A stretch of DNA of 64,000 nucleotides from Diplonema papillatum (Eukaryota > Euglenozoa > Diplonemea > Diplonemida > Diplonemidae): positions 47,052-111,051 of the forward strand of contig JAPJBO010000758.1 of assembly GCA_030068145.1 (NCBI GenBank), written 5' to 3'. The notes below the pieces were generated by a model, which was not told where the DNA came from, did no database searches, and saw nothing but the letters and a program-made list of their open reading frames with translations. Numbering within the stretch: the first letter of the stretch is position 1; the number at the start of each line of letters is the position of its first letter. Positions 2,971-62,441 of the stretch are shown piece by piece. The position numbers and the translations under genes were made by a program.

Positions 2971-3157
2971 AAGAAATGCGTAGTTTTGTTTTATTCTTTT
3001 ACTTGTTTGTTGTCGACAACATATTGTGGTTGAGGTGTCATTCAGATGAAGATCTAAAGCCGCCCACGTCAAATTTTGTTAAGCAGCGGCTGCCAAAACT
3101 TGCCGTGACACCTAGTTGATGCAAGGTAAAGGAGAAAGTTGGAAGTAATTGGGAAGT
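2971..3157 (-). repeat. Downstream pseudo-LTR of the Penelope-like element
   Basis: This 187-bp direct repeat matches 8831-9017. In the element's sense (minus) direction it ends at the complement of AAGAAATGCGTAGTTTTG. That boundary is shared by every truncated copy in the window and so is the 3' terminus. An AATAAA-type signal lies about 20 bases from that end. Confidence 0.9.
3034..3113 (-). ncRNA. Pseudoknot-capable structured RNA element in the pseudo-LTR
   Basis: On the minus strand an outer stem GGTGTCA/TGACACC encloses CGG and then a 9-bp hairpin CAAGTTTTG/CAAAATTTG with one A-C mismatch. The 15-nt loop is GCAGCCGCTGCTTAA. ACGTGG follows, then GCGGCT, which can pair with AGCCGC in the loop to form a pseudoknot. 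An identical copy is at 8894-8973. Diverged versions at 40421-40506 and 61577-61662 keep the layout with different stem sequences. The CTGANGA...GAAA core of a hammerhead ribozyme, known in other Penelope-like elements, is absent. Function is unknown: a ribozyme or a reverse-transcriptase recognition site are possible. Confidence 0.6.
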
Positions 3158-3216
3158 TGATATTTTGTTGGGACCCTCGTAGCTCGCTGGGTCAGGCGCG
3201 CCAGGTAAGTGCTGGG

Positions 3217-6200
3217 TTAGTTCCTGCCTGGGCTCGGACTGTGAAGTCCTCTTGGGTTTCCGTCGCAAGTTCTCTCGTGTATGCTTACACCGAACCAGTT
3301 TGCGAATGGGTTTCCGGACCTTGTTGTCGCTATACCACAGAAGCGACACTTCGGCACGGTGGCTTGTGGGTCAGGAAGTTGTGTTTCTGGGATGTTCGCG
3401 GGAGGGCTTGCCTGCGAATCTTGCGTTTGTGACGGCGTCTGTCGTGGCAGCTCTGGTGTAACAGGTCGAGCTGGTGGCTGTTCCCTTGAGTCCAGTCGAA
3501 CGGAAGGCTGTTCTGGTGACTCTGGTTGAGCGGCCAGATGTTCTGGTTGTTCTTCTGATGGTTGGGGGACAACACGCGGGCACGCCTGTTCCTCTGTACT
3601 TGTCGCTGAAGCAGAAGAGTTGCGGGGAGGGTCTGCGTTTGGGTTGTGGAATCTTGCGAACAGGCTTTCGGAGTACGGTCCCTGTATTGGGATGTAATGC
3701 ACTTGAGCGATATAACCTAGCATTACGGGGGTCCCTGACTCACCTACTGTCTGCGTGTGAAACCTGTTTCTCTCGTCAATGGAAAACAGGTGTATTTTCA
3801 CGTTTTTGAGCTTTGTGTAGGCCACGAGTGAAAGGTAGTCGCCCCAGGTGTAGTTCTCGCGGAGTTTTGCAATGTACTGGGAGAGGTCAAGGTCGGGTAG
3901 GAAGATCCTCAAGTCACTCTTGTGCGATTCCCAGTAGTCTGCTAGCTCGTTGCGGAGGGCCATCTGGTCTCCCTGTTTGTAAGACAAGCTCAGGAACAGG
4001 CAGTTTCCATTTCCAGCTACGGAACGCGGCTGCAATCCTATTGTCCTCAGTCTGGACATGAGTCTCAGCTCTCGTTTGAGAAGCCTGTCACGTGAGTTGA
4101 GGTTGTCACTGTCTTTAGGGGGTTTCGGTGGTTCGGCATTGGGGAAGAAGGTTGGAATGTGGGTTTCTTTAGAGAGTGAGGATACCACTTCGCTTACTTT
4201 CTTTGTTCTCCGACGCCCTACTCTTTTTTGTTCTTCTACGATTGGGAAGCCTGCGTAGTAAGATACAACGCAATTTTGAAACCATTGCTTGAGAGAACGT
4301 TGCGATGCGCCAAGGTTTGGCAGACGTTCTTGCACGCCGTGATGGAAAACGGCTTTCAGCTTCTGAATCCGATGGCCTCTGTTTAGCAACAGATACAGCA
4401 CTAGCTGGATTTCTCTCAGCGCGTCGTGCCAGTTGTTGCACAAATTGAGGCAGCGGATGAGCAGATTCTTAAGGATCGCAGACCCTTGGTGGTCCGGGAT
4501 CGTGGACCACTGGTGAACAAAACGTACTGGTTTGAAGTGCCAGTTTCTTGCTTTGTCATTGACCGAGAGTCTGACGAAACTGTGATGGTCGTCAGTGGAC
4601 TGCTCCAGCCTGATCCGTATTCCTAGATACTCGACGTCTCCTTCTTTTAAAGTCGTTTCTTTGTACGTCATCTTGTAGAATGACGAGGGCGGTGGTTCTA
4701 CTCCCCAAGTGAGGAAGTCGTCCATGTACCGCTTGGAGTCCCGGTGTGCTTTCGCTTTTGCTTCGTCTTGTTTCATGAGTTCGTCCACGTACCGGGACTC
4801 CACATCGTAGCAGTACAAGTTTGCAAGATCAGGCGAGGCGTTGGCACCGAGTGGCAGTCCAAAGATTTGTCTCATGCACACTCCGCCTTGTTCAACGAAG
4901 CAGTTGTCAACGCAGAGAGCGATGAGGGCTTCGATGTCTTGTAATGTGTACGACTTCTCCTTTGAGGTGCCGCCGAAAAGCTTGAACTCGTTGGTCTTCG
5001 CGAAATCGAAAGCCTCCTTCACTGCATTTGAAACACCTTTTTTAAGGTCTTCTTGCGGCAGTTCATTGAACATTGTTTTGAAGTCAAATGTTCTGGGGAG
5101 CTTTCTTCGGAGGAACCTGTAACGCTGTTTGATTTCGGCAGCAACTTCATCCGCGCTCTCGATAATCCAATATCTGGATATTCCTTTTTCGGCCTTAAGG
5201 ATATCGTCCTTAGCTTTGAGGTGTTGCATGACGACTTTCAGGAGCTTTGACAGTAAAGTATTGGCTTCTGTGGTTGCTGCTTTTGGCTTTCCTTTTGCTG
5301 GTTTCGGTTGAGGAGGAGGGGGGGGTGGCGCTGGAAGGGGTTCGTCATCGAAGTCGAGGCCGTTAAGTTCTCTCTCTTGAGGAGGAGGGTTGCGGGATGA
5401 TACGCCAGCTATCCAGCGCATGCCTTTCTTCTCCTTATGCAGTTTCGGGAGGCCGTATAGGTAAGGCAACTTACCTGTGGAGCTAAAACCCAGCGACACA
5501 TTCCTTGCAGCCAAGGTTGCTCGAAGATCGTCGACGTCCTGGACGCTTGCGTAGCAGCTTGAGCGGAGTTGGTTTTGCAGCATGCGATGATAGTGCTTTT
5601 TGCAAATGATACCAACGTCGTGCCTACTTTTGTCTACTTTTGTCAGGACGAAGTGTGTTTTCAGTGTTTTAAGTGCATCAAGCGCTTTCTTCGAGAGGGT
5701 GTCAGGGGTGAGATGTGGGTGTTTGACAAACCTCGCTTTCATTTCTGCAACGATGACTTCTGTTAATTTCTCTTGTTCTGGGGGGGAAACGGCTTTGAAC
5801 GTAGAGGTCACGTAACTAGACACATCGTTTTCCATGTTTTCAAAGACGTGGTCAACATGAGAAGGAAGTCTGTATTTTAGGCCCATGTCAAAAAGGTGAA
5901 GAAGCTCTTCGTCCATTTTTATGTCGTGGGCTGTGCACATGACGTGACCTTCGTGAGTTACGTCGGTTGAGTTTTCCTTGAGAAACTGTGAGCAAGGACA
6001 AGGTTTTGCTAGGTCGTGAAAGTCTCCTTGGGCCGTATTGAGACTCTCTTCGGTCACGTTAAGCAAGAAGCTAGACGTGGGCGGACCTAATTTGTTGCAA
6101 ATCCGTGTTATGCTAAGCAGTTCGGGCGCAGGGCAAGCGTCGATAACTTTTTGGCTGCGAAGAACTTGGCCAAGCTGGATAGCGTCTATCGTTTTGTGCG

Positions 6201-7812
6201 AAAAACTCAGCTTTAGCCACTTCACCGAGTAATCTCTCTTTCTTTGTAACTTCTTTAGGGAAAAGGGTGTCAGCCTTGCAATAAGTTTGCTTTCGAGCAG
6301 TTCTACTTTTTTTGTGAAGTATTCACCAACTAAGAAGCGCCGCATGAAGGACAGGACCCGCGTGACTCGGCGTAGCTGCCAGTTGTCAAGGTCGTATTCT
6401 GCGAGTGCGGTTTCATCTAGTTGGAACAGGATGTTGAGGTGACGCTTTATGCCTTTCCAGCGTCCTTCCTCGATAAGGAGGGGGGTTGTGCCTCGCAATT
6501 CCCTGATTTGTTCTGTCGTCTCGCGACGGCTGGCACGTTTCTGGGAAGAGGCTGCGGCTCTTTCTTTTTTGGGGGGGCGTTTCTTGTTTTTCCTCTTCCG
6601 CTTTCCTACGGCTGTTGAGTACAAACCTTTCTGATTGAGAGGTGGATTCAACGTGTTGATGTAGTGGTATTCGCGAGGGAGAGCCTGCCTGTAAAAGAGG
6701 AACTTGTTTCTCTTTTTCGAGTTTGCCGCTTCTGGGGTGAAGGCTATCTTTTCGAGGACAACCGCTAGAAGCGGTGACTGTCTTCGGATAAGAAATTCCT
6801 CTACCTTTGTGGGCTGTTGTTGTCTCTTCTGTTTGCTGCGTGCGCTTGAGAAGTGGGCCGATATCCTTGTGAAGGCCTTACCACTTGTTTGGCCTACGTA
6901 GAGCAGGTTGCCAGCTTCGTTGGCGAGACCATAGATGACTCCTTCCTGCTCTAGGTCGCTAGTAACATGGGGGACTTTGCACTTGTACTTCTCCCGTACC
7001 GACGGGAGAACTTTGCTGCATGCATCCAAAAAAACAGGCTTGTTGAAACGACCTTCGGCATGGTATGACTTTGTGTCGAGGTGTCGGAACGCCGCCTTGC
7101 TTTTGAGGACTTCGTACCTGTTAAACGAGACAAGAAACGGGTCTGTTTTCACTTCATGGCGGCCGTGCGGAACTCTGGTGGTTGTAGCGCGGGCTGGCCC
7201 TTGTTTCGCTTCTCTTTTCTTTGCGTCGCGAGGTTTTTCCTTTTTAGAAACTTCTTCCAGCAGGACAATTCTAGTGACTGCTAGAGGCGGCTTTAAGCCG
7301 CGACGTAGGACAGTTTCCATTTTCCTGAAAGGGACGTAGACCCCTGGTTTTCTGCTGTAGTGTACGGTGAGCCTATTTCCTTCTTTTGTAGCAGATGAGA
7401 TCAAAAACCTTTTGGATGCGAGCAGGCTTGCTTGCGAAAGGAGTTTGATTGTTAAGCCAGTCAAATTTACAGAGCTTTTATGTGCTGAGGGGGGCCGGCG
7501 TACGTCTTGCGTTGCTCGTGGGTGTGCCTTGAACATACGCGTTTTGGGCAGGTTGGAGTGCAGGCTGGCTTCATAGTTATTCGAATGAGAATGAAAGTTC
7601 GTTTGGCTATCTTTGTTTTTGGTTGCTTTACCTTTTTTGCCTTTGGAGCCTTTACCATGGGACTTGTTGAAGCTTATGCCTGTTCCTTTCTCGTGTGATC
7701 TCCCTTTTGATCCTTTTGCGGAAAAAGATTTCCCTGCTGTTCCTTTCTTGCCTGTTGTTTGTGTTCCCTTGGTATCTGGGATACCATATTTTCCTTCGTT
7801 ATGTGGCCTCAT
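3217..7812 (-). CDS. Penelope-like polyprotein: GIY-YIG, RT, OTU protease, zinc finger
   Basis: A 1,531-residue ORF. Residues 1-115 are basic and rich in Lys/Gly. Residues 290-395 form a GIY-YIG nuclease (GVIY, LLYVGQTSG, Arg316, His320 and the EYHYINTLNPPLN end). Residues 720-1070 are the reverse transcriptase, with YLYGLPKLHKE, motif A FDFKTMF, GLPLGANASPDLAN and the YMDD box at about 1029-1032. A proline-rich insert occupies about 807-850. Residues 1254-1386 match the OTU cysteine protease fold: GNGNCLF with Cys1271, YTWGDYLSL, and His1372 in VHYIPI. A C-x2-C-x19-H-x3-C finger lies at 1489-1516. N-terminal GIY-YIG is known for one Penelope-like clade; OTU is the unusual addition. The ORF is about 1.5-fold longer than usual, and no stop interrupts it. 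Confidence 0.92.
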   Translation of the reverse strand: MRPHNEGKYGIPDTKGTQTTGKKGTAGKSFSAKGSKGRSHEKGTGISFNKSHGKGSKGKKGKATKNKDSQTNFHSHSNNYEASLHSNLPKTRMFKAHPRATQDVRRPPSAHKSSVNLTGLTIKLLSQASLLASKRFLISSATKEGNRLTVHYSRKPGVYVPFRKMETVLRRGLKPPLAVTRIVLLEEVSKKEKPRDAKKREAKQGPARATTTRVPHGRHEVKTDPFLVSFNRYEVLKSKAAFRHLDTKSYHAEGRFNKPVFLDACSKVLPSVREKYKCKVPHVTSDLEQEGVIYGLANEAGNLLYVGQTSGKAFTRISAHFSSARSKQKRQQQPTKVEEFLIRRQSPLLAVVLEKIAFTPEAANSKKRNKFLFYRQALPREYHYINTLNPPLNQKGLYSTAVGKRKRKNKKRPPKKERAAASSQKRASRRETTEQIRELRGTTPLLIEEGRWKGIKRHLNILFQLDETALAEYDLDNWQLRRVTRVLSFMRRFLVGEYFTKKVELLESKLIARLTPFSLKKLQRKRDYSVKWLKLSFSHKTIDAIQLGQVLRSQKVIDACPAPELLSITRICNKLGPPTSSFLLNVTEESLNTAQGDFHDLAKPCPCSQFLKENSTDVTHEGHVMCTAHDIKMDEELLHLFDMGLKYRLPSHVDHVFENMENDVSSYVTSTFKAVSPPEQEKLTEVIVAEMKARFVKHPHLTPDTLSKKALDALKTLKTHFVLTKVDKSRHDVGIICKKHYHRMLQNQLRSSCYASVQDVDDLRATLAARNVSLGFSSTGKLPYLYGLPKLHKEKKGMRWIAGVSSRNPPPQERELNGLDFDDEPLPAPPPPPPQPKPAKGKPKAATTEANTLLSKLLKVVMQHLKAKDDILKAEKGISRYWIIESADEVAAEIKQRYRFLRRKLPRTFDFKTMFNELPQEDLKKGVSNAVKEAFDFAKTNEFKLFGGTSKEKSYTLQDIEALIALCVDNCFVEQGGVCMRQIFGLPLGANASPDLANLYCYDVESRYVDELMKQDEAKAKAHRDSKRYMDDFLTWGVEPPPSSFYKMTYKETTLKEGDVEYLGIRIRLEQSTDDHHSFVRLSVNDKARNWHFKPVRFVHQWSTIPDHQGSAILKNLLIRCLNLCNNWHDALREIQLVLYLLLNRGHRIQKLKAVFHHGVQERLPNLGASQRSLKQWFQNCVVSYYAGFPIVEEQKRVGRRRTKKVSEVVSSLSKETHIPTFFPNAEPPKPPKDSDNLNSRDRLLKRELRLMSRLRTIGLQPRSVAGNGNCLFLSLSYKQGDQMALRNELADYWESHKSDLRIFLPDLDLSQYIAKLRENYTWGDYLSLVAYTKLKNVKIHLFSIDERNRFHTQTVGESGTPVMLGYIAQVHYIPIQGPYSESLFARFHNPNADPPRNSSASATSTEEQACPRVVPQPSEEQPEHLAAQPESPEQPSVRLDSREQPPARPVTPELPRQTPSQTQDSQASPPANIPETQLPDPQATVPKCRFCGIATTRSGNPFANWFGVSIHERTCDGNPRGLHSPSPGRN

Positions 7813-8830
7813 TTGGGATGGGCTGTCCGCTGCAAAAGTTTTTTTAGCAGGTTATGATTTTTATGACTGAGGCCAAGGGGTGCTACCCCCTTGTTGCTTG
7901 GGAAACCTAGCCCAAGCACCCGTCAAACACCGATGAGTGTCCTTTTGGTTTAAGGAGTGCGACCACTCATCACTAGGGGTAAAGACCCCTCACTCCATCA
8001 TTCAACGGCCAGTCGCCCAGGGAGTTTAGGTGTCGTCGACCCCGGTTATCACGCCGTAACTCCGTTGAACTGCTGTTTTAGTTGCCCATGTGGCTTTCGG
8101 CCAGGCCCTGGATACAGCTTCCCAGGTCTACGTTTCGCTACGTTTTTTTGCTTCGACGTCGAGAGTACGAGCGGATGACGTTTTGATTGCTCTGACGTTT
8201 CACGACAGGCGATGAGGACAGCATAGCTATTTTGATGACGTAACGTACTTATTGCTTGATCGGATACGGTGATACGGTCTTTTGTGTCGGGGACAGGCGA
8301 TAAACAGAAGGGTGGTGGAACGTGAGGTTTCGATTTTTCGCAGTTTGAGAGGAGGTTCCGAGTGCCAAGTATGTTGACTTCCAGAAGTCGCCGTCCATTC
8401 CTCTAGGCTCCTTCTCCTTCAGGGCAACCGGCAAAGAGCTCCTGAAGAGCATACAACCTCTGTGACCATGGAGTTTGCGGAGCTGAGTGCAGGTAAGGGC
8501 TGGGTTTTCTTGCTACATACATATTCCACGAGGTGGATTGACGTAATGTAGCATGTTCTGGATGGTCCAACTAATTCGTGGGTTGGGTGGTTCGGCTTTA
8601 CGTTGCAACTATCTTTCGATTGTGTGGAGAGGTCTTCTTTCAGAGAAGATATTTCGATTTGCTGTCAGTTCTCTCACTTCCGCTCGGGGAGATGAGGCAC
8701 GCGGACAGAACTTTCTGTTCCGCTGCGTGGCTTTTTGGGACAAATGATAGCAGTTCCGAAGAGGTGCATCAGTGTTTAGCCAGATCCTCCACTGGTAGCT
8801 CTAGAGAGACCCATGTGGTAGATCGGTAGA
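7813..8830 (-). other. 5' region of the Penelope-like element
   Basis: No ORF is credible here. The part at 7870-8000 has several short inverted repeats (for example GGGGT/ACCCC and CCACTCAT/ATGAGTG), suggesting a structured leader. The last 45 bases before the pseudo-LTR (8786-8825, TCCTCCACTGGTAGCTCTA and following) recur at 62367-62408 beside another pseudo-LTR, which marks them as element sequence. Confidence 0.6.
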
Positions 8831-9017
8831 AAGAAATGCGTAGTTTTGTTTTATTCTTTTACTTGTTTGTTGTCGACAACATATTGTGGTTGAGGTGTCA
8901 TTCAGATGAAGATCTAAAGCCGCCCACGTCAAATTTTGTTAAGCAGCGGCTGCCAAAACTTGCCGTGACACCTAGTTGATGCAAGGTAAAGGAGAAAGTT
9001 GGAAGTAATTGGGAAGT
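8831..9017 (-). repeat. Upstream pseudo-LTR of the Penelope-like element
   Basis: Identical direct repeat of 2971-3157, containing the same structured RNA element at 8894-8973. Beyond it the unit AATTGGGAAG is repeated once more before unrelated sequence starts. Confidence 0.9.
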
Positions 9018-19471: not shown

Positions 19472-19830
19472 AAGAAATGCGTAGTTCTGTTTTATTCTTT
19501 TACTTGTTGTTGTCGACAACTTGTTTTGTGTTGAGGTGTCATTCAGATGTAAATCTAAAGCCGCCCACGTCAAATTTTGTTAAGCATTGAGTTCTTTTAA
19601 GTACATGAACCACATGGATTAGCATGCACTGCCTCGACAACCAGGTTATCGGATGACGTCGTCACCTGCCGTTGCGTTGTTAAGCATTGAGTTCTTTTGT
19701 AAGTACATGAACCACATGGTTATGTCATGAACCACATTTGTTAAGCATTGAGTTCTTTTAAGTACATGAACCATGGATTAGCATGCACAAATTTTGTTGA
19801 GCAGCGGCTGCCAAAACTTGCCGTGAAAAA
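19472..19830 (-). repeat. Diverged pseudo-LTR copy interrupted by element H
   Basis: The pseudo-LTR runs from AAGAAATGCGTAGTTCTG to AAATTTTGTTAAGCA. Element H (TTGAGTTCTTTTAAGTACAT and following) appears three times, with deletions. The pseudo-LTR then resumes with AAATTTTGTTGAGCAGCGGC. The repeated AAATTTTGTTRAGCA on both sides looks like a target-site duplication of about 15 bp. Confidence 0.8.
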
Positions 19831-26934: not shown

Positions 26935-27115
26935 ACTCCACTCGAGGGACTGCCTTGTGCTCATTTCGAAGGAGGCTAGAGAGGAAGAAATGCGTAGTTT
27001 TGTTTTATTATTTTACTTGTTAGTTGTCGACAATCAACAAGTAAACCGAAAACAATACAACTACAGTGGGTCTTTACTGTTGAACGCTTACGCCCGCCAC
27101 TGATTTAATGAATTC
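26935..27115. repeat. Family F repeat containing a 48-bp Penelope-like insertion
   Basis: F sequence ACTCGAGGGACTGCCTTGTG (about 26939) is interrupted at 26985-27033 by a pseudo-LTR 3' end and resumes with AAAACAATACAACTAC. The F copy at 35425 reads straight through this point, giving an empty-site comparison. Confidence 0.8.
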
Positions 27116-36280: not shown

Positions 36281-36493
36281 CCCCACTCTTTCGAGTGGAG
36301 CCGAACCAGGAGATAACCGTAGGAACCGGCCGTAAGGCTCAAACCCTCGGAACAACAAGGCTCCTCAGTGCGTTACGCCCGCCGGTCCATTCGGACTCGT
36401 ATAGACCCGGTTGGAGACACGGGGTCTGGATGTGAATTTGGAAGCTGCCGTTCGCCGAAGCTAGTCGTGGCCCGATAAATCCGATGTGCCCTG
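36281..36493 (-). repeat. Candidate tRNA-derived SINE, copy 1
   Basis: About 210 bases that are the reverse complement of 47306-47516. On the SINE sense strand, GGGCGTAACGCACTGAGGAG resembles a pol III A box and GGTTTGAGCC a B box. CCGGC/GCCGG can form a partial acceptor-like stem around them. Confidence 0.55.
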
Positions 36494-37784: not shown

Positions 37785-38200
37785 TGTGCTTACTTCGACG
37801 TTTGCGAACGCTTACGCCCGCCACTAAACCCAGATTTACCTTTGTTTCATGCGGGCTACAGCACATTCACCTTTGTTTCGCGTGGGATACAGCACATTCA
37901 CCTTCTTTGATCTTTCGCAACTAGCAGCCTCCTCAAGTATTTCCTACAAAGCAGGTGCTTCATGCAAAAGAATGCGTAGTTTTGTTTTGTTCTTTTACTT
38001 GTTAGTTGGCGACAACATGTGTTTGTGTTGAGGTGTCATTCAGATGTAAATCTAAAGCCGCCGCGTCGAATTTTGTTAAGCATTGAGTTTTTTTACGTAC
38101 ATGGACCTGGAAGTACATGAACCACATGGATTAGCATGCACTAGAATTTTTGTTAAGCAGCGGCTGTCAAAACTTGCCGTGACACCTGATCAAAGTGATC
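37785..38200 (-). repeat. Family F fragment followed by a pseudo-LTR with element H
   Basis: F sequence runs to about 37965. The pseudo-LTR starts at 37967 and is interrupted after AATTTTGTTAAGCA by element H, then resumes with TTTTTGTTAAGCAGCGGCTG and ends GCCGTGACACC. This is the same H insertion site as at 19472-19830, so both derive from one H-bearing subfamily. Confidence 0.8.
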
Positions 38201-38232: not shown

Positions 38233-39015
38233 CTAAAAGAGAAAGGGGGGGAATATTTTGTGACCCTCGAATAGAAACAGCCTAGAATACAGAGAAAAAA
38301 CGCAAAGAAATACCGCGGCGAGCAGGTGCGAGTAGCCTTCGGTTCGGTTCTGGGCGACAAGCATTTTGCTGCTGCTGAAGTCCGGGATCCCGTAGGCCAC
38401 AGTCAGGGCGTTGGGCTGGTCAAATGCCCAGTACGAGCGGCCGAAAAACCCGTCGACCTGCCGCGTGTACAGCGACCACCACAAAAGGAACACGAACGAA
38501 CCGATGAGCACCACTCCGTTCGTGAAGCGGTCCCACCAGTAGGCGCAGTAAAGGATAAAGAGGTACAGCGGCCTCGGCGTCTGCACGGCGAAGAGGAACC
38601 AGTAAACGGAGCCGAGGATCACCACCTTCCTCCCCGTGGATGCGTTATGCCTGTCCATGTTGTACGGATCGACCACTTTTTCCCAATGCACCTGGTGTCC
38701 AGTGAGCCCAACTACGCGGTCGACGGCTGCCCTCGCCCAGGTTTCTGACTTCTCCTTCAGGTCAGGCTCGTCGTCCCTGCCGTACACCATGTACGCAGGG
38801 GCCCCGTGCATCACGGCGTCGTACGCTTCGCGGATCCTTTGAAACTCCTCGGCATCGCCACCCTTGTCCGGGTGATGCTCCGCCACCAGCTTCTGGTACG
38901 CGGCCTTGACCTCCTCGGGGGACGCCGTCCGTTCCACGCCCAACACTCCGTGGGGGCTCTTTTTGAACGTCGGCTGCCGCGCCGCTGTGCACAAGAGCAC
39001 GCGAGCGCGCCGCAT
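38233..39015 (-). CDS. Membrane-anchored DnaJ (J-domain) protein
   Basis: A 260-residue protein if started at ATG 39015 (MRRARVLLCTAARQPTF), whose Arg-rich, acid-free start resembles a mitochondrial presequence. An upstream in-frame ATG at 39159 would add 48 residues. The J domain spans about residues 20-75, with the HPD motif at 48-50 (AEHHPDKGG) needed to stimulate Hsp70. The C-terminal half has two or three hydrophobic segments (KVVILGSVYWFLFAV; LYLFILYCAYW; GVVLIGSFVFLLWW), so it is probably an inner-membrane co-chaperone. The last 25 residues (FLCVFSLYSRLFLFEGHKIF) may be read-through past a donor. A Penelope-like pseudo-LTR lies about 30 bases beyond the stop. Confidence 0.82.
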   Translation of the reverse strand: MRRARVLLCTAARQPTFKKSPHGVLGVERTASPEEVKAAYQKLVAEHHPDKGGDAEEFQRIREAYDAVMHGAPAYMVYGRDDEPDLKEKSETWARAAVDRVVGLTGHQVHWEKVVDPYNMDRHNASTGRKVVILGSVYWFLFAVQTPRPLYLFILYCAYWWDRFTNGVVLIGSFVFLLWWSLYTRQVDGFFGRSYWAFDQPNALTVAYGIPDFSSSKMLVAQNRTEGYSHLLAAVFLCVFSLYSRLFLFEGHKIFPPFLF

Positions 39016-39229
39016 GCTCTTTGCTTTTGCCTTGAACGGTGTTTCTTGTGCCTGGAGCAGTGGATCGCTGTGCAGAATTGTGCGCCGAAAGTGAGTTGAA
39101 GCATGGTTAAAGAGTAGTTGAGTGTATTTCTCCAGCCGAGCGAGAAACCCTGGAAACACTGCAAAGTTTTGAATGTCGCTGGATTAGAGATATGCGTGTG
39201 TGTGTGTGTGTGTTTAAGTTCAGGGCTTT

Positions 39230-40286: not shown

Positions 40287-40329
<43 letters not shown>

Positions 40330-40420
40330 CTGGCGGATCCATTCCAGGGAGTGAGCAGGTAGATTGTGCCACACACGTAGTCGGCATCAAATCTAAAGGA
40401 ACTGGCGACGCAGGTATCAA

Positions 40421-40506
40421 AGGTAGTTGAAGTATGGCTAAAGATAAAGCCACCTGAGGGGGTGATAAGCCGTTAAGCAGCGGCTGCCGGCTTATCCCGT
40501 GACACC
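40421..40506 (-). ncRNA. Solo diverged copy of the pseudoknot-capable RNA element
   Basis: Minus strand: GGTGTCA, CGG, a perfect 9-bp stem GATAAGCCG/CGGCTTATC around the conserved loop GCAGCCGCTGCTTAA, then GTGGCT, which pairs with the loop AGCCGC through one G-U pair. The stem differs completely from the copy at 3034-3113 but pairs better. The outer stem is weak and bulged. No other Penelope-like sequence was recognised next to it. Confidence 0.55.
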
Positions 40507-43450: not shown

Positions 43451-44675
43451 CGAGACTGCTGGACTTTAGCTTGTTTTCGAGCCCTGTGACCTTCCCTTTG
43501 TACCGCCCCCTCCGGCTCAGTTTTCTTGCCTCCTCTTCTCTTGTCACTGGTCGCTTTAGCCGAGAAGACTCGGAGAAGTAGAAGTGAAGAATACTAAAAA
43601 GTACTCGAAGAATACTAGATACCCTGAGCATTTCTCAGTCGAAAAAAGCCACACACGGAATCACACGGATTCCGTGTGAGTCCGTGCAGGAGTATTTCTA
43701 TTCCGTGTGAGACCGACGGAGTCCGTCGGAATGCAATGTATGGGAATCCTCATAGATGGCCGGTTGATAACGTTATATAACGTTATATAACGTTATAACG
43801 GTGATAACGTTATATAACGTTATATAACGTTATATAACGGTCGAAAACGCAAAATAACGGAAAAAATAACGCAAATAACGGTTTTTAGAAATTTTCCGAT
43901 TTTGGCCATGTTTCCAGATTTTTGTCATTTTTTCCTCATTTTGGTCCATTTCGGCCATTTTTTCCGATTTTGGCCATTTTTGCCAGATTTTGGTCAATCT
44001 TAGCCAATTTTTCCAGACTTTTGCCGATTTTTTCAATCTTTGCCGATTTTTCCAGATTTCGGCAATTTTTGCCGATTTTTCAAGATTTTGGACAATTTTG
44101 AGATTTTGGCCACTCTGGCCGATTTATCCAGATCAGTCAATTTCGGCCATTTTTTCCGATTTTTCCAGATTTCCCGATTTTCCAGATTTTGGTCAATTTC
44201 GGCCATTTTTGCCAATTTTTCCAGACTTTTGCCGATTTTTGGATCCCGGTCACAAAAACTGTTCGGAAACAAACCCTGGTCCGAAAAGAATTCGTAGTAA
44301 CCGGTCCTCAGGGGTCCGTATAGCCCCTCCCCAGAGCTTTTTCTCTTTTACTTATTTTCTTGCGGACTTCCACCCAAGCGCGACAAACGCGATCCTTCCG
44401 GATTCACATGACTCTTTCACTGTGCGATGTTGTTCTTGGGATGTGGATGTCTGCAGTTTTGGGTTTCCGGCGCGTGTCCCTCAGTCGGTGGCCCGTAACG
44501 GTCGTTTGCAGTGTCCTTCGTGAGGCAGCAGATGTCACCAGCATGATCCGGCCACTGGAGTCCAACTTGTCCAAGCTTGTCCACTCGGCAGACCGTTGCG
44601 TACTATGCCAGTCAGACAAGGTCCCAGTACCAAATATGGGTGCATGATGAGCACGAGACATGCAAAGTCGAGCAG

Positions 44676-45565: not shown

Positions 45566-45740
45566 CTGGTAAAAAACCGTTATATAACGTTATATAACGT
45601 TATATAACGTTATATAACGTTATATAACGTTATATAACGTTATATAACGTTATATAACGTTATATAACGTTATTATAACGTTATTATAACGTTATATAAC
45701 GTTATTATACCGTTATTATAACGTTATATAACGTTATAAC
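45566..45740. repeat. 10-bp palindromic tandem array (TATATAACGT)
   Basis: About 15 units inside the right end of the long-TIR element. Shorter arrays lie at 43770-43840 and 45845-45880. Confidence 0.95.
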
Positions 45741-45899
45741 GGTCAAATAACGTTATTTTTCGACCAAAAATGGCAAATAACGGTTTTATAACGGTCAATA
45801 ACGGTTTTTCTGGATTTAGGGGGGGGGTAACAAATAACTCCGGGAATAACGTTATATAACGTTATATAACGTTATATAACGGCCATCTATGTGGGATTG

Positions 45900-47049: not shown

Positions 47050-47170
47050 TTTAATACATGCGGAAACACATGCGGAAAACACGTGCGGAAACACGTACGG
47101 AATTCCGCACGTACGGAAAATCACAATTTTATTCACGTGCGGAATTCCGTACGTATCGCATGCGGAACGC
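47050..47170. repeat. Palindromic cluster of CACGTGCGGAA units
   Basis: Repeated (C)ATGCGGAAA and ACACGTGCGG units are followed by CGTACGGAATTCCGCACGTACGG-like palindromes cut into short pieces, centred near 47100 and 47150. Confidence 0.75.
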
Positions 47171-47305
47171 AAGGCCTGGGTACGTCTTTTTTACAAACTG
47201 GATCCGGTTGTTCGATCGGACAGTGCCGTGATGCTACTACTGGATGGATTATGGCTGAACGCCTCTGAGCCAGAACCCAGTCTAGAGGAATGCGTGAGTT
47301 ACTCA

Positions 47306-47516
47306 GGGCACATCGGATTTATCAGGCCACGACTAGCTTCGGCGAACGGCAACTTCCAATTTCACATCCAGATCCCGTGTCTCCAACCGGGTCTATACGA
47401 GTCCGAATGGACCGGCGGGCGTAACGCACTGAGGAGCCTTGTTGTTCCGAGGGTTTGAGCCTTATGGCCGGTTCCTACGGTTATCTCCTGGTTCGGCTCC
47501 ACTCGAAAGAGTGGGG
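47306..47516 (+). repeat. Candidate tRNA-derived SINE, copy 2
   Basis: Inverted copy of 36281-36493. The putative A box is at about 47418 and B box at about 47449, with an approximately 20-base spacing between boxes. Divergence between copies is low. Confidence 0.55.
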
Positions 47517-61466: not shown

Positions 61467-62441
61467 AAGAAATGGTAATCGTGGTAAACTTTCTTTTTGT
61501 TCCTTTTACGGCTATTCTCTCCTTTTATGCGTCTTTTGCTCTCTATTGCTGGGAATACCGGTATTCCTGGACTTTTGGTGCTGAAGGAAGGGATGAATCC
61601 GTTCACTTCACCCCCCACGTGGCGCTCGTTTAGCAGGGGCTGCCGAGTCGCACCGTGGCACCGTCCTTCTGTGAAGTAAACATAGTAATAAATACTGTTG
61701 TCTTCATTACCCTCGTAGCTCGCCGGGTCAGCATTCCATCGAGATGGAATTGTGTATTGCCTTTTGGAGCGTGCCTACAATCACTGATTTAGCAGTGCTA
61801 TAGGTTGGGCTCGTATTTTGGTAAGAGCTTTCCTGCAGTCATCGTCATACAAGACGATGCTGCAGTCAGGCTCATTTCTATCGTGTGAGAGCTGGCGGCT
61901 GAGGGGATGAGGGTTGGGCTCCTCGCTTTCTTTTCCTCTGTTGTTGTGTTGTTTGCTTCTTTTTCCTTTTTCTGTGGTTCCAACCGGTGTTTTCTTTTAG
62001 TTGCCCTATCATGCAAGGTCAAAACCTTGTGTCTTTTTGGAAATGGCCAAAAAAAAGTTTCCGGAAAAAAAAATGGGTTTTTTGAATTTTAAAAGTTTGG
62101 AACAAACTCCGCAGTAATTTTTGAGGAAGTTGAGCAAATTTTTTTTTTCCAAAATTTTTTTTAGGGCTCCATCGGCCCTGCGGGAGCGTTTTAAAAAGAC
62201 ACAAGGTTTTGACCCTGCATGCTATGATGGTAGTATTGCTACCAGACGCTTTTCATACCCCAAGGCTGAAGGATATGGCGCGCAGTCAGTGTTTTCACCA
62301 CTTCTGCGTGACTTTATTGTGACGTCAGTTGCGTTCCGAAAAAAGCACTGCGCCTTTGCCGAATCCTCCACTGGTAGCTCTGGCGAGACCCATGTGGTAG
62401 ACTGGACGAAGAAATGGTAATCGTGGTAAACTTTCTTTTTT
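61467..62441 (-). mobile_element. Second, internally deleted Penelope-like element
   Basis: The left pseudo-LTR starts AAGAAATGGTAATCGTGG (61467) and contains the structured RNA at 61577-61662. CCCTCGTAGCTCGCCGGGTC at 61711 matches 3173-3193 of the intact element. TCCTCCACTGGTAGCTCTGG (62367) matches its 5' end beside the second pseudo-LTR start at 62409. The whole ORF is missing, and a MITE (62010-62221) sits inside. Orientation equals that of the intact element. The right pseudo-LTR is cut at 62441 by another MITE. Confidence 0.78.
61577..61662 (-). ncRNA. Diverged copy of the pseudoknot-capable RNA element
   Basis: Minus strand: GGTGCC(A) pairs with AGCACC, then CGG, a stem GCG-A-CTCG/CGAGCGC with one bulge, loop GCAGCCCCTGCTAAA, ACGTGG and GGGG, which pairs with CCCC in the loop. 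Relative to 3034-3113 the outer stem changes T-A to C-G, the hairpin changes throughout, and the loop-pairing G-C becomes C-G, all retaining pairing. Confidence 0.6.

Follow-up and report, generated by a model that had tools for sequence, protein, structure and literature searches.

A conserved hairpin RNA motif in the terminal repeats of a Penelope-like element from Diplonema papillatum

We identified an RNA motif, built on a 9-bp stem under a near-invariant 15-nt loop, in both terminal repeats (pLTRs) of a Penelope-like element (PLE) and at other loci on one Diplonema papillatum contig. Alignment of the copies shows that the letters of the stem have drifted while its pairing has been kept. 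The function that we favor, given how near the motif lies to the 3′ terminus, is that of a conserved, protein-recognized RNA in the 3′ pLTR part of an N-terminal-endonuclease PLE; whether this is correct we regard as an even call. The evidence comes from one contig, of which a 64,000-nt stretch (the window) was analyzed, and from three diverged lineages of the motif. The motif offers a defined target of 50–90 nt for asking what PLEs need their pLTRs for (a handle for the reverse transcriptase [RT], a cleaver, or both), and it bears on template choice by telomerase-related RTs.

The hairpin keeps its pairing while its letters drift

Six copies of the motif lie in the window, all in the same orientation as the open reading frame (ORF) of the PLE:

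3034..3112, minus strand: copy 1 (lineage 1), 79 nt, in the 3′ pLTR
8894..8972, minus strand: motif identical to copy 1, in the 5′ pLTR
40413..40506, minus strand: copy 2 (lineage 2), stem GATAAGCCG/CGGCTTATC
61577..61662, minus strand: copy 3 (lineage 3), stem GCG-A-CTCG/CGAGCGC, loop with CCC
37967..38186, minus strand: copy 4 plus 3′ tail, core at 38139-38186
19472..19826, minus strand: copy 5 and its 3′ tail, containing repeated inserts, core at 19783-19830

Copy 1 comprises an outer stem, CACGG, the 9-bp stem, the 15-nt loop, ACGTGG, a putative pseudoknot partner (GCGGCT), and a possible small hairpin (AGAT/ATCT). An initial annotation had listed copies 1, 2, and 3. All three are real and are minus-strand sequence, but the twin in the 5′ pLTR and copies 4 and 5 had been missed. 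Copy 2 had been bounded at 40421-40506; the copy stands, but its end moves to 40413, since the 3′ arm of its outer stem lies at 40413-40419. The loop GCAGCC(G/C)CTGCT(T/A)AA, the CGG before the stem, and the ACGTGG after it in two copies read as had been described. The loop is nearly invariant over its 15 nt, and the invariant stretch before the stem is CACGG.

The stem forms 9/9, 9/9, and 7/9 pairs in copies 1, 2, and 3, respectively, the last with one bulge; random loci in the window equaled this stem quality in 81, 53, and 1956 of 200,000 draws. The claim that the stem had been rewritten with its pairing retained was borne out: seven of the nine pairs changed on both sides, one changed on one side, and one never varied, in a five-row alignment whose rows represent only three diverged lineages, so that the counts overstate the independent events. 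We also scored a 17-pair structure that combined the 9-bp stem with a CACG/CGTG helix and with an inner GCAG/CTGC pairing. Pair counts were limited to the 48-nt core because MAFFT, given the full motif, misplaced the downstream part. In this structure, 85.7% of cells were paired, and sliding controls reached only 26–49%. None of 500 shuffles matched its paired fraction, its both-sided pairs, its both-sided cells, or its covariation score, and 23 of 500 matched its number of further pair types. The CACG/CGTG helix below the stem is not claimed: every one of its four pairs fails in two of the five rows, and it shows no covariation.

A covariance model, which the initial annotation had proposed, was built from the 48-nt core and run unfiltered over the whole window. 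Its top matches, each at E ≤ 2e-13 and on the minus strand, were the six copies, and the next match had an E value of 0.11 (all E values for these models are rough, as calibration was short). Five of these copies are rows of the model, one of which the sixth duplicates exactly; the honest test is therefore provided by leave-one-out models. The model without lineage 3 recovered the core of lineage 3 at E = 2e-7 (next match, 0.37), and the model without lineage 2 recovered the core of lineage 2 at E = 7e-10 (next match, 0.18), even though in the latter MAFFT shifted the gap of lineage 3 and left one row partly out of register. Further copies that break the stems had been named as grounds for refutation, and the outcome was mixed: no additional copy rose above noise, but in copies 4 and 5 inserts at the stem's 3′ arm enlarge or disturb the 3′ side, with the loop and the 5′ arm kept. 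In copy 4, the insert includes a short duplication and makes the span between the outer-stem arms 76 nt longer than in copy 1. In copy 5, homology to copy 1 breaks off within the 5′ side of the motif. These two copies are probably decaying or derived and make an unclean test of the fold.

The resemblance among copies could in principle be chance or an alignment artifact, a reading that we consider highly improbable. In its favor, matches to the loop plus CACGG do arise in large collections: 6 contigs in GTDB, and 0, 0, and 31 matches for the RNA patterns in IMG/VR, where the 31 come from a looser pattern. The core model, scored on the first 10 contigs fetched, also reached 22.7 bits (E = 7e-4) on its best GTDB contig, which had been preselected for the loop. 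Against it, none of the 37 outside matches forms the 9-bp stem. The longest stems had at most 2 contiguous pairs among the 6 GTDB contigs and at most 7 pairs with one bulge among the 31 from IMG/VR. The held-out lineages, moreover, were recovered far ahead of the next matches in the window. For the hairpin, the chance reading is refuted. Relatives of the motif or the element were not found in the viral, prokaryote, phage, and plasmid collections searched: the element protein and an RT fragment had no relatives in IMG/VR, a DNA pattern for the RT motifs gave 4 contigs, all dissimilar to the element, with a best tblastn E of 2.2, and neither the motif region, searched in phage records, nor an RT piece, searched in plasmid records, had a match.

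Other parts of the fold are less firm. The outer stem is moderately supported by the sequences: it is GGTGTCA/TGACACC (7 bp) in copy 1, GGTGTCA/TGATACC (7 bp with one G-U) in copy 2, and GGTGC/GCACC (5 bp only) in copy 3, where the reported change from T-A to C-G was seen. Random 30-mers equaled it in 50, 420, and 2107 of 20,000 draws for lineages 1–3, statistics that are flattered by the setting of copy ends where the outer stem fits. Pairing of the loop with downstream sequence would be AGCCGC/GCGGCT, AGCCGC/GTGGCT, and GCCCC/GGGGT in the three lineages, with duplex energies of −13.0, −10.8, and −16.3 kcal/mol. The covariation that had been claimed for this pseudoknot holds at one position (G-C to G-U to C-G), but not at the strength implied: random 25-mers equaled the complementarity of copies 1, 2, and 3 in 641, 1703, and 834 of 20,000 draws, and copy 3 pairs best in a different register. 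As we read the geometry, 2 nt would cross the 6-bp helix and 6–10 nt the 9-bp stem, which appears feasible. We regard the pseudoknot as plausible but weak.

Competing folds exist. A mini-hairpin (GCAG/CTGC) inside the loop is conserved and gains 3 kcal/mol over an open loop in every lineage, and in the lowest-energy nested fold of copy 1 the loop pairs with its downstream partner and the 9-bp stem is opened. Relative to shuffles, fold energies on the sense strand had z scores of −2.92, −3.71, and −2.15, compared with −1.77, −1.44, and −1.52 on the antisense strand; raw antisense energies were similar to the sense ones. Covariation by itself cannot separate RNA from extruded or palindromic DNA, and PAc, another PLE, cuts DNA at its own ORF-pLTR junction (PMC11167929). 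A DNA signal is nevertheless very unlikely in our estimation: a site read in double-stranded DNA is expected to keep its letters rather than its pairing, whereas here the stem letters vary and an asymmetric loop is kept.

The host element and its 3′ tails

The minus strand carries a PLE of ∼6 kb with GIY-YIG, CxC, telomerase-like RT motifs, and an OTU domain. Its parts, and the sequences related to its 3′ end, are as follows:

2971..3157, minus strand: 3′ pLTR, 187 bp, 100% identical to 8831-9017 by self-BLAST
8831..9017, minus strand: 5′ pLTR, 187 bp, 100% identical to 2971-3157 by self-BLAST
3217..7851, minus strand: stop-to-stop ORF of the element, 1544 aa, with Pfam domains and motifs read by eye
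2971..2998, minus strand: 28-nt 3′-terminal sequence AAGAATAAAACAAAACTACGCATTTCTT
3173..3195, minus strand: 23-nt block CTGACCC(A/G)GCGAGCTACGAGGGT between stop codon and motif, shared with lineage 3
61709..61731, minus strand: the same 23-nt block, CTGACCC(A/G)GCGAGCTACGAGGGT, upstream of lineage 3

Identical 187-bp direct repeats thus lie on both sides of the ORF, the arrangement of pLTRs in PLEs. Along the ORF protein, the landmarks are GIY-YIG at residues 304-357 (PF01541, 27 bits against a cut-off of 22.6), CPC at 618, LPKLHK at 801, FDFKTMF at 922, GLPLGANASPDLANL at 998, YMDD at 1042, and OTU at 1280-1375. The four motifs LPKLHK, FDFKTMF, GLPLGANASPDLANL, and YMDD, read by eye in this order over residues 801-1045, are what we take to be telomerase-like RT signatures; the protein had no match to Pfam RT profiles, and NCBIfam RT models reached no better than E = 0.046 and 0.068 (residues 968-1048). 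An AlphaFold model of a 686-residue stretch, made without relatives, had a pLDDT of 38.7. The C-terminal domain is an OTU-like cysteine protease (PF02338, 36.2 bits), with OTUD3 as the top PDB sequence match; a PLE combined with an OTU domain was not found in the open-licence literature searched.

PLEs with an N-terminal endonuclease (Chlamys and Naiad) have the endonuclease before the RT and a CxC motif linking the two; N-terminal GIY-YIG PLEs of these types were reportedly described by Craig et al. in 2021. Because GIY-YIG, CPC, and the RT motifs occur in this order here, the sequence would place the element with the N-terminal-endonuclease PLEs. It has the order GIY-YIG, CxC, RT motifs and the pLTRs of Chlamys and Naiad elements, and differs from them in its additional C-terminal OTU domain. 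Chlamys PLEs are noted in Ectocarpus (PMC12477816).

The terminal 18-mer CAAAACTACGCATTTCTT occurs eight times in the window with up to three mismatches, always on the minus strand, for a chance mean of 0.05. The motif ends 63 nt before this 3′ terminus, which is common to eight tails; four of the eight contain only sequence downstream of the motif, and four carry the motif. The motif lies close to the end from which the element is probably copied.

The 23-nt block begins 21 nt after the stop codon and, apart from its two listed sites, occurs nowhere in the window at up to three mismatches. Copy 4 retains part of it (CTA..CGAGGGTC), in an alignment matched by none of 500 shuffles, and lineage 2 lacks it. 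The 5′ flank of lineage 2 is weakly like that of lineage 3 (9 of 300 shuffles were as good) and unlike that of lineage 1 (258 of 300), and likeness between the 3′ flanks of lineages did not exceed that of shuffles (135, 227, and 105 of 300 were as good). In lineages 2 and 3, the A/C-rich tail is unrecognizable, and for lineage 2 no PLE context beyond the motif was found within the window. The setting in PLE terminal repeats, as originally proposed, was shown only for copy 1 and its identical twin; copies 2 and 3 are solitary.

Candidate functions of the motif

The RTs of non-LTR retrotransposons, including R2, recognize structures in the 3′ UTR, and the motif can be likened to these by description, since both are folded RNAs close to the 3′ terminus of an element that uses target priming. 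N-terminal-endonuclease PLEs are said to lack canonical hammerhead ribozymes, and the motif is not known to have a counterpart in Chlamys or Naiad PLEs. The motif would represent a conserved RNA in a position comparable to the hammerhead's within a clade that was reported without canonical hammerheads.

A precedent is PAc, an Anolis PLE studied in vitro. Its reverse transcription starts inside an AC-rich stem-loop 111–118 nt into the ORF, which by subtraction of published positions is 85–92 nt after the hammerhead cut at +26 (PMC11167929). The protein-binding RNA motif proposed by the authors falls in the initial 172 nt of the ORF, beside the hammerhead; the ribozyme cleaves only with the protein present, and the template tolerates trimming as far as +20, beside the cut site at +26 (PMC11167929). 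The position of our motif relative to the A/C-rich tail is comparable to that in PAc.

We propose that the element's own RT/endonuclease protein would bind the element RNA at the loop and CACGG and that the enzyme, so positioned, would begin target-primed reverse transcription within the A/C-rich tail that follows directly downstream. The binding site could be compacted by the outer stem and the loop-to-downstream pseudoknot, and pLTRs arising from partial tandem insertion would leave the motif in both repeats. We favor RT recognition because of the 63-nt distance to the shared terminus, and for the same reason RT binding is better placed than self-cleavage, the other function that the initial annotation had suggested. 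Also consistent with it are the conservation of loop and CACGG alongside a rewritten stem, the upstream block that ties the motif to the 3′ end of the PLE (lineages 1 and 3 and copy 4), the orientation of all six copies with the ORF, and the four of eight tails that lie purely downstream of the motif. Counting against it are the absence of recognizable PLE context around lineage 2 beyond the motif, the unrecognizable tails of lineages 2 and 3, the similar raw antisense energies, and the copy 1 fold that opens the 9-bp stem. Moreover, most of the PAc hammerhead is dispensable in the template, and the pattern of conservation would suit a ribozyme core equally well.

A self-cleaving ribozyme would explain the motif differently. 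We consider it rather unlikely that a new ribozyme has replaced the pLTR hammerhead and cuts tandem transcripts to unit length; that the motif founds a new class of small self-cleaving ribozymes, a pseudoknotted hairpin with a GCAGCCSCUGCUWAA core in the hammerhead's place in the pLTRs of N-terminal-endonuclease PLEs, we hold to be unlikely. The hammerhead core is CTGANGA and GAAA. This core is absent from the motif and from the pLTRs; over 6230 nt of the sense strand, the pattern CTGANGA...GAAA matches three times, twice within the ORF and once upstream of the 5′ repeat. The fold had been called unlike a hammerhead, and this agrees with the missing core. In the Rfam scan suggested earlier, no family, hammerheads and other ribozymes included, matched any of the six copies at gathering score, and at E ≤ 10 the surroundings of copies 1, 2, and 3 gave only weak matches to unrelated families, with none to HDV-like, twister, pistol, or hatchet ribozymes. 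Compared by eye with the topologies and core sequences of these ribozymes, HDV-like, twister, and pistol readings did not fit: the possible pairing of the loop with downstream sequence is a topology like that of twister and pistol, but the core sequences of all three are absent.

The presence of the motif in both pLTRs is in keeping with a ribozyme, and hammerheads do recur in the pLTRs of other PLEs, with a role that is still unclear (PMC7761336). Relative to those hammerheads (minimal type I, as in PAc), the motif is likewise a structured RNA in the pLTR upstream of the tail where reverse transcription starts, but it has a different fold. Its size, its conserved positions, and its possible pseudoknot are features named for candidate ribozymes (PMC10085705). 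Against cleavage, we can point to no conserved site for it, the pseudoknot is weak, and the full element does not start at the motif, its 5′ repeat beginning 45 nt upstream. Only one copy (19472-19826) ends near the 5′ edge of the motif. The idea that copies start exactly at that edge, as a hint of cleavage, was rejected, as copy 4 reaches ∼88 nt further upstream. In PAc, too, the active ribozyme is dispensable for insertion in vitro, cleavage being unneeded (PMC11167929).

A conserved hairpin could instead serve another step in the life of the mRNA, such as 3′-end formation, export, translation, or stability. The motif lies in the 3′ untranslated part, and the 23-nt block, a second conserved block, follows the stop codon closely. 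This reading nonetheless seems quite unlikely to us: the motif also occurs in the 5′ repeat, and a specific factor is not indicated.

Neighboring insertions and other window features

Nine separate PLE-derived insertions were found in the window (at 2971, 19472, 20588, 26983, 37967, 40413, 48473, 50018, and 61577), of which seven have the terminal tail and two are motif lineages 2 and 3. All nine are on the minus strand, for which the two-sided chance, calculated by hand, is 2/512. The insertion at 26983 also holds a short inverted piece: at 26983-27064, a PLE tail is apparently joined to its own inverted copy (TTTACTTGTTG...CAACTAACAAGTAAA), forming a foldback end. A (CA/TG)n microsatellite lies 71 nt past the 3′ end of the full element (2875-2900) and another 87 nt past motif lineage 2 (40291-40326); no such repeat lies within 400 nt on the 3′ side of the remaining seven insertions. 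Directly upstream of copy 4 is an ORF with a DnaJ domain (38233-39183), placing a PLE 3′ end in or beside the DnaJ 3′ UTR.

Elsewhere, positions 47100-47485 match diverged sequence from the 3′ end of eukaryotic LSU rRNA (RF02543, 73 bits), and 47304-47516, which overlaps this match, is repeated in inverted orientation at 36281-36493 with 98% identity; the pair may be a repeat or pseudogene of rRNA origin. A 10-bp unit that is a perfect palindrome (ATAACGTTAT) forms arrays at 43767-43839 and 45578-45881, where palindromes extend up to 92 bp.
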